From Chthonomonadales bacterium (GTDB lineage: Bacteria; Armatimonadota; Chthonomonadetes; Chthonomonadales; CAJBBX01): a stretch of 64,000 nt of DNA. Of this stretch, positions 1,307 to 57,459 are shown one piece after another. The stretch spans positions 1 to 64,000 of the forward strand of contig DAIDHP010000004.1 in assembly GCA_027459625.1 (NCBI GenBank), read 5' to 3'. The notes beneath the pieces were generated by a model, which saw nothing but the letters and a program-made list of their open reading frames with translations, had not been told where the DNA came from and did not search any database. The first letter of the stretch is position 1. Each line of letters opens with the position of its first letter. The position numbers and the translations under genes were made by a program.

Positions 1307-1717
1307 GATTGATTCCATCCTTCTCAATGATATTCGCCAAAATACAAATATACCGATTCCAAGGGATTTTACCCGCTACCATCCCTCCGAGGCGTGTTTG
1401 CCAATGGGAGAGCTGGAAAAGTGGATGGAACCGTGGCTGTTTGAATACGTAATAACAATGTCAACAAGCGGGGGCGTCGAAAGTCGAAGAATCAGGTGTA
1501 AAAACGGGACTTGCGTCCCATGATATCGTAACATGCATTCCTTCCTTCGACAGCGGACGGCTGCGATTGTTAACCCCATTCAAATGTTATGTAGGTGGAT
1601 GTGATTGCGCACTTCGGAAAATGAGGTTATGATCGATAACCCGACGCTTGGCGACGCATCCGATTAGCATTTTAGCAGTTGCTTTTATGATCATCCTGAC
1701 CGTCATGAGGTGGCGCC
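1307..1717. other. Intergenic region between divergent genes
   Basis: About 410 bases separate the divergent Gfo/Idh and DUF2339 genes. Short open frames here have no ribosome binding site and no recognisable protein. It should contain promoters for both flanking genes, but I see no convincing -35/-10 pair. Confidence 0.5.
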
Positions 1718-28729: not shown

Positions 28730-28871
28730 GAAATATATGCTAACATCGAATCACGCGGGTCATTGATTGTATAGAACAATGTCATCCGACATAAATCAGC
28801 GGATCAGACGATTGCAAAAATGCGACCGCAGTGTTTTTCCACAAGAGTGGAAAGTCATATGCAACCACCCG
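28730..28871. other. Intergenic region left of the palindromic element
   Basis: Together with the element at 28872 and the stretch to 29084, this 354-base gap separates the barrel gene from csaB. No open frame is supported. It contains the barrel gene's untranslated leader. Confidence 0.4.
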
Positions 28872-28956
28872 AGGTGATTGCAAAATTCAGGAAAGGCGAT
28901 TTATATCGCCGAAGTTACATTCGATGCGGCGCATGGATAGTGCTTTGCGATCACCA
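28872..28956. repeat. Nested palindromic element, degenerate copy
   Basis: The left end AGGTGATTGCAAAATTC (28872-28888) differs by one base from the left end of the perfect element at 37535. An inner palindrome GGCGAT/ATCGCC follows, and the right end TTTGCGATCACC (28944-28955) is the imperfect complement of the left. The total length, about 85 bases, is close to the 83 of the other copy. Confidence 0.6.
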
Positions 28957-29084
28957 GCTATTTATGGGATTTTGCACTCACCTTGGATATATGCACACTA
29001 TCCTTATCGTTGTGAATACTGCGGTTGAATACCAAATAGATTACTTTACGATGGAGTTCTTATTCCAGTGACGTCATGAATATA

Positions 29085-33027: not shown

Positions 33028-33114
33028 TCCTCGTGACCTCCATACAATTTTGGCATATCTCTATATTTAGGTCAACACGAACGGCTTGTAAGTGACAAAC
33101 AAAGATATTTGGTC

Positions 33115-33131
33115 AGGTAATTGCAAAACTC
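33115..33131. repeat. Half copy of the palindromic element end
   Basis: AGGTAATTGCAAAACTC repeats the first 14 bases of the 37535 element end exactly, then diverges. No matching right end is visible before the FKBP gene, so this is a truncated or decayed copy. Confidence 0.45.
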
Positions 33132-33208
33132 GATTTTCGGTGTTTTATCGAACTGGGAAATAGTGTTAACAGTCGCGTTTATCCGAAATTCGCCATGTCC
33201 TCTGGAGA

Positions 33209-37419: not shown

Positions 37420-37534
37420 TGTGCAAAAATAACCGCATTGATAATCATCCGTAACTGAAACATCATAAGCTTAGTTCTTATACGACCATTCACGAGAACG
37501 ATAGTGATTTATCCCTTGATAAATACTAATATAG

Positions 37535-37617
37535 AGGTAATTGCAAAATTCAGAAAATGAGGCTAATATCGCTCATTTCATGCTCGGCGAAATAAAAAGC
37601 GAATTTTGCAATTACCT
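37535..37617. repeat. Nested palindromic element with perfect 17-bp termini
   Basis: AGGTAATTGCAAAATTC (37535-37551) and its exact complement GAATTTTGCAATTACCT (37601-37617) bound an 83-base element. Inside, AAATGAG pairs with CTCATTT. The sequence lies in a non-coding gap. Imperfect copies exist at 28872 and 43308 and a half copy at 33115. Size and structure fit a MITE or a REP-type palindrome; no transposase is in the window. Confidence 0.75.
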
Positions 37618-38243
37618 GTGTAGTTAATATCTTTGGTTCCTCGCTGTTTTGTGTGGGTATACGACAGGCGGGTATCTCTGCATTGAACTCATTCCATCCC
37701 GAAAAAGCTGTCTACTGGAGTGTGCCGATACGCTTGCAAAGCTCGATGGAGGATGTGTTGCGGGCGAACCGAGCTATTAATATTCAACCCCTTTGGTGTT
37801 GGCGGATGGCTTTCAAGCCATTTGGGATATCGCACCTCGGGATTCATCCCGATGGGAATACGGAGCGGAACTATTATAAACGCCGTCTTATTTCATGTCG
37901 CCGCTTACTCATCCGTTCATTACCCACGGGAAACAGAGAAGAACCATATGATTTCTATTTAATGGATGTAAAGCTCGTTGGATTCTATAATTAATTCAAA
38001 CACCATCTGATAAAAGGTGACGGAAATCCATGTGGAATGGAGATAAGATCGTTTCATGGTTCATTTTGATATTCCACATCAGGATATAAAGAGTTTATGT
38101 GTGATGCTTGAGCACCTATTGCCTGCACAGTATGAGGTGGAACCTAAAATACATAAACATGTATGAAACCTCGCATACTATTCTTTACATTCCATAGTTT
38201 AGGCAAATCGATTCTCGGAGAAGAAACCATTCTTGATGACAGG
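37618..38243. other. Intergenic region, possibly with degraded coding sequence
   Basis: The stretch 37680-37960 can be read in two frames as WRMAFKPFGISHLGIHPDGN or as NPFGVGGWLSSHLGYRTSGF with few stops, but without ribosome binding sites. It may be an eroded reading frame or a chance one. Nothing else is supported. Confidence 0.3.
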
Positions 38244-43307: not shown

Positions 43308-43386
43308 GGGAATTGCAAAAAACAAATGTGATGAACCATCAAGCGTGTCATAAGCGCCATTAGTTTTTTTGAATTTTACAATAGCC
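43308..43386. repeat. Degenerate copy of the palindromic element
   Basis: GGGAATTGCAAAA (43308-43320) and GAATTTTACAATAGCC (43371-43386) resemble the two ends of the 37535 element at nearly the same spacing (79 bases). The interior is not conserved. Confidence 0.4.
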
Positions 43387-57232: not shown

Positions 57233-57296
57233 TTTTTCACCTCCAATCATCTTCCCTTATGATGGCTCTGCATGCCATCCGCAGGGAGTACGCAAT

Positions 57297-57405
57297 AAAA
57301 AAAGGAATCCCCGAAAACGGTGGACTCCCCTCATTACGGTGGCGCAATGGCACCTGCCGATATGGGATCTCCCCTCGGCGGGCGGTTTAAAAACCATTAT
57401 GTATT
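57297..57405 (-). promoter_or_regulatory. Probable ribosomal protein L10 leader with attenuator
   Basis: On the minus strand the leader contains CCGCCCGCCGAGGGGAG and later CGGCAGGTG, the paired GC-rich element with a CCGAGG core seen in L10 leaders. It is followed by a terminator: GGAGTCC pairs with GGGATTCC around a TTTT loop, then seven T (plus-strand A tract 57297-57303). L10-L12 binding to the first part could favour termination, reducing stalk synthesis. Confidence 0.6.
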
Positions 57406-57459
57406 GAGAAGATACACCCGCTGTCTTCGGATTGAATTCATTTTTCTATTGTGGGTAAC

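Follow-up and report, generated by a model that had tools for sequence, protein, structure and literature searches.

A dispersed family of palindromic elements in a Chthonomonadales bacterium, very probably MITEs of an IS1182 subgroup

Prokaryotic MITEs, e.g., MITEAba12 and the QMITEs of Coxiella, are short, gene-less, IS-derived elements with inverted-repeat ends and target duplications that reach high copy numbers (PMC10969869); IS1182 is unmentioned in the text of that review. Within the IS1182 family, ISPse1 has 16/16 ends and a 4-bp duplication (PMC3281130). Two further relatives, ISUnCu17 of Aeromonas plasmids and the IS1182-annotated element of Comamonas pBHB, were used as a yardstick (L276-L277); both sit on plasmids, and in an Aeromonas plasmid ISUnCu17 lies between qacEdelta1 and aac(6')-Ib. 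REP sequences with their TnpA-REP (RAYT) enzymes provide another point of reference, being intergenic palindromes in many copies.

We analyzed a window comprising 64,000 nucleotides of a Chthonomonadales bacterium genome (contig DAIDHP010000004.1), in which a palindrome had been singled out at positions 37535 to 37617. The element has every trait listed above for prokaryotic MITEs, with a different IS family behind it. Unlike the IS1182 elements, it carries no gene and has its own end-sequence variant, and the copies of its partner IS are broken; unlike REP sequences, it has exact inverted ends, target duplications, and a DDE partner. We consider the palindrome very probably a MITE that belongs to an IS1182 subgroup and was moved in trans by an IS1182-type DDE transposase. 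Such elements are already known as a kind, but this family appears to be undescribed, and a literature search for the end sequence found no paper.

The palindrome and its dispersed family

The two 17-bp arms, AGGTAATTGCAAAATTC (37535 to 37551) and GAATTTTGCAATTACCT (37601 to 37617), are exact complements, and an inner AAATGAG/CTCATTT stem pairs 37555 to 37561 with 37572 to 37578, both as described in the sequence-only reading. Nowhere else in the window do perfectly complementary arms of 17 bp or more enclose a loop of 150 or less, and 10 Markov-1 sequences of the same composition contained no such repeat. The palindrome is thus real and far beyond chance, and its predicted fold is strong (z-score of −5.3 against shuffles). 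Elsewhere in the window, Rfam matches were obtained for a group II intron at 3 to 73 (45 bits) and a ribosomal protein L10 leader on the minus strand at 57288 to 57448 (46.4 bits).

The mobile unit extends one base beyond the 83-bp palindrome at each end (G at 37534 and G at 37618), so that this plus-strand copy spans 85 bp (37534 to 37618; nhmmer E value, 2.5e-24). The canonical unit, G-AGGTAATTGCAAAATTC...GAATTTTGCAATTACCT-G (also given as GAGGTAATT...AATTACCTG), measures 89 bp, or 87 bp when counted from 17-mer to 17-mer inclusive. The window copy equals this consensus except for the loss of four internal bases near the right arm (...GAAATACCTGAAAAGC... to ...GAAATAAAAAGC...). Its left terminal inverted repeat, GAGGTAATTGCAAAATTC (37534 to 37551, plus strand), is an 18-mer that also terminates decayed IS copies on contigs C7 and C27 of the same genome; the right repeat (37601 to 37618, minus strand) reads inward as CAGGTAATTGCAAAATTC, with C rather than G as its outermost base in the subfamily to which this copy belongs. 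About 50 bp, with no transposase gene, separate the ends, and the inner stem (37555 to 37578, plus strand) is an internal part that varies between subfamilies.

The palindrome had been described as sitting alone in a gap, which is right only in part: a second dispersed repeat of 311 bp (37635 to 37945; ends, GGTTCCTCGCTGTTTTGTGTGG and GGTTCTTCTCTGTTTCCCGTGG) begins 16 bp downstream. It has about 20 copies in the genome, mostly at 87 to 94% identity and with no clear target duplications. Because ISL3-type transposase genes on contig C21 of this genome and in the sister species are bounded by the same ends, the 311-bp repeat is probably an ISL3-derived, non-autonomous element unrelated to the MITE.

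Copy number was assessed by pattern searches of the whole genome (G000; 4.55 Mb in 114 contigs) and of stretches extracted from it. With up to two mismatches, the 17-mer end gave 106 forward and 89 reverse matches (195 in all), and the same pattern read backwards gave none. BLAST with the 83-bp sequence returned about 40 full-length matches, of which 27 reached at least 90% identity. The family therefore comprises about 100 copies in its own genome, which answers the call for a search for further copies with the same ends and removes the possibility, raised at the outset, that this copy is the only one. A sister species of the same genus (G001) has about as many ends (174 matches at one mismatch), and ten further genomes of the same taxonomic family yielded no match with up to one mismatch.

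Of 47 extracted copies, 6 match the consensus exactly and others depart from it at 13 to 40 positions, so the family spread in several waves. Our genome also contains a second subfamily (with GGCGAATTGAGTTCATCTCACGCTTGATTGG inside) and a third, and the sister species has dominant subfamilies of its own. Within the window, a degraded, older copy of the third subfamily lies on the minus strand at 33114 to 33201 (E value, 4.3e-8), immediately beyond the stop codon of an FKBP-like gene (33544 to 33209), and belongs to the same subfamily as a copy on contig C5 at 149211. The window also holds a degraded older relative of 112 bp (28871 to 28983, plus strand; E value, 2e-8) and degraded copies at 1600 to 1682 (plus strand; 9.4e-7) and 43308 to 43386 (minus strand; 3.4e-5). 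At the right end of a sister-species contig (L179; G001:C173), a MITE lies between inverted rather than direct repeats (TGTATTCAG...CTGAATACA); at the extreme contig end, these flanks are probably an assembly fold-back.

Target duplications and the partner insertion sequence

Insertion was assessed by comparing the flanks of the 93 copies for which both were available, with re-paired flanks as the control. A direct repeat emerges in a single register, 4 bp long, once one base is skipped on each side (G on the left in 80 of 93 copies and on the right in 77 of 93), and this register outside the terminal Gs defines the 89-bp element. The 4-bp duplication is exact in 57 of the 93 copies (control mean, 3.2; maximum, 10), and the duplicated targets are A+T-rich. 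Two orthologous sites are empty in the sister species and have the target once: TTAAATC-AATA-TCCC (also written ATCAATATCCC) stands against AATA-G[element]G-AATA in our genome, and CCTTATAAGAC stands against TTAT-G[element]G-TTAT. These sites are direct evidence of insertion, and the target duplications that had been recommended for search are present. When the rule derived from the 93 copies is applied to the copy at 37534 to 37618, its flanks are TATA (37530 to 37533) and TGTA (37619 to 37622), with one base altered; that its own duplication matches at only three of four bases counts against the MITE/IS1182 reading. At its orthologous site, the sister contig (C182) breaks off.

Decayed insertion sequences with the MITE ends occur in both genomes and carry DUF772 and DDE_Tnp_1 domains or their remains. 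Among the DDE_Tnp_1 loci, those bounded by MITE ends are on contig C27 of our genome (985 bp) and contig C211 of the sister species (1,398 bp), and a protein search added a third with the same ends on contig C7 of our genome (1,427 bp). Stops or frame changes disrupt all three. Neither genome yielded an intact transposase with these ends, and the two fullest copies showed no clear target duplication, both of which count against the MITE/IS1182 reading. Past the common 16 to 18 bp, IS ends and MITE are also alike in their subterminal bases, a weak likeness given the tiny search space.

With its one stop read as X, the transposase has both DUF772 and DDE_Tnp_1. By NCBIfam, it falls between IS5 and IS1182 and reaches neither curated cut-off (76.5 bits against 140 for IS5; 75.7 against 270 for IS1182), with level scores for IS1182 and IS5_4, and a relative from another genome is placed likewise. 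Its closest annotated plasmid relatives, including ISUnCu17 and the Comamonas pBHB element, are IS1182-family transposases with 39 to 45% identity over at least 95% of the length. By these relatives, the mobilizing IS appears closest to the IS1182 family, though it is below the NCBIfam cut-off. The ends read for the two known elements, GAGGCTCTTGCAGAA (duplication TGGT) and GAGCCTCTTGCAAAA (duplication ATGA), share GAG....TTGCA with the MITE end GAGGTAATTGCAAAA, and the best plasmid relatives have GAGNNTCTTGCARAA ends; both end sequence and 4-bp duplication are therefore as in known IS1182 members.

Sequence comparison thus establishes the family, its ends, the duplication, the empty sites, the same-ended IS copies, and the intergenic bias described below; from the shared ends and the duplication length, we infer that an IS1182-type transposase did the moving. 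The proposal of a non-autonomous mobile element is supported by near-identical copies dispersed at about 100 sites, inverted-repeat ends, 4-bp duplications, empty sites, and a DDE transposase between the same ends, albeit in broken copies, as had been anticipated in the suggestion to look for such an enzyme. The transposase appears to have been active recently and, because its copies in both assemblies are broken, may now be lost or unassembled or may have been supplied from outside. We propose the following. An IS1182-family DDE enzyme from elsewhere in the cell, whose own IS ends in GAGGTAATTGCAAAA, would bind the two ends and relocate the 89-bp unit into another A+T-rich target, where gap repair would leave the 4-bp duplication. 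Repeated bursts would generate the distinct subfamilies of the two species, and intergenic copies would persist while insertions within genes were purged by selection.

Alternative movers and origins

Another DDE family might have moved the MITE, and an intact IS4-family gene does lie between degenerate ends of the MITE type in a genome of the same order (L094; G017:C70:1-2695). This gene is within the arms of a G017-type MITE, however, and fits a later insertion into that element, because the outer ends are degenerate and have no matching duplication. The MITE ends accompany remains of IS1182-type transposases in G000, G001, and G017 and, more loosely, in G040. We regard an IS4-type mover as improbable and have rejected it.

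The placement of the family also bears on its origin. None of 27 copies falls within crude open reading frame calls, compared with 523 of 600 random points, and with the element and one of its duplications excised from the sequence, an open frame of at least 100 codons spans only 53% of the junctions, compared with 93% of random points. Selection against insertions that disrupt genes suffices to account for the intergenic placement. This placement and the strong predicted fold would also suit a conserved regulatory or terminator hairpin of particular genes, multiplied by selection for RNA function, but the roughly 100 unrelated locations of the copies, their target duplications, and the sites empty in the sister species argue against it. 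Further, neighboring genes are 17 co-directional, 9 divergent, and 1 convergent, a mix resembling that of random intergenic points, and Rfam gave no match at the palindrome. Of the changes in the arms, 116 affect one side only and 6 affect both (about 2.6 two-sided expected), so compensation is scarce and nothing indicates that the hairpin is maintained as RNA. A regulatory hairpin is a very improbable origin and, as such, is refuted by these observations; individual copies could nevertheless have been co-opted.

Y1 chemistry leaves no target duplication. The proposal of a REP-type palindrome moved by a Y1 single-strand transposase (IS200/IS605-like, TnpA-REP/RAYT) that recognizes the hairpin suits a palindromic, intergenic, high-copy element in a genome with two Y1_Tnp genes, but it is very improbable and went unsupported, as neither Y1 locus has MITE ends nearby, the 4-bp duplication and perfect terminal inverted repeats are not Y1 products, and a DDE transposase was found between the MITE ends.

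Wider distribution and biological meaning

Beyond the two species, a genome of the same order (G017) has the same ends with AAAAGTC bounding elements of 197 to 268 bp, several of them with 4-bp duplications. The MITEs of this genome (L069-L074, L085) have G+C-rich palindromic repeats inside (CCCTCACCCCCCGACCCCC..., CCTAACCCCCCGGCCCCC...), and at a locus in another genome (L066; G062), an end of the MITE type is followed by a palindrome of the TGTCATTTCGAGCGCAGCGAGAAATCT... type. The G017 and G062 loci are cases of one kind of repeat nested inside another.

When GTDB genomes were scanned for GAGGTAATTGCAAAA...TTTTGCAATTACCT[C/G], elements of 88 to 113 bp with the same 15-bp ends emerged in seven MAGs titled Victivallales, Lentisphaera, Holophagales, Calditrichaeota, Parachlamydiaceae, Deltaproteobacteria, and "Verrucomicrobia SZAS-4." Exact 4-bp duplications occur at 6 of the listed copies, and 5-bp duplications were recognized by eye at four Lentisphaera copies. 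Since the transposase gave a match in only two of the seven, Holophagales and Deltaproteobacteria, and these matches were weak and fragmentary, a shared mover is something that we can only infer; mis-binning of single contigs may also have contributed. The end pair had no match among IMG/VR viruses and the element none among plasmids. We tentatively suggest, as a possibility somewhat short of even, that MITEs of 88 to 113 bp with the 15-bp end GAGGTAATTGCAAAA form a single group across phyla, with 4- to 5-bp duplications where these are readable and with one IS1182 subgroup as the mover. If so, the ends would have been conserved, or exchanged repeatedly among distant environmental bacteria, and the interiors replaced, sometimes by other palindromic repeats.

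For lineages represented only by MAGs, the present work adds a well-bounded MITE family, with its ends, 4-bp duplication, empty sites, and partner IS. It accounts for some hundred hairpins of this genome that lack annotation, and such hairpins should not be mistaken for terminators or regulatory RNAs. The family also offers markers with which recent movement can be followed between sister species.
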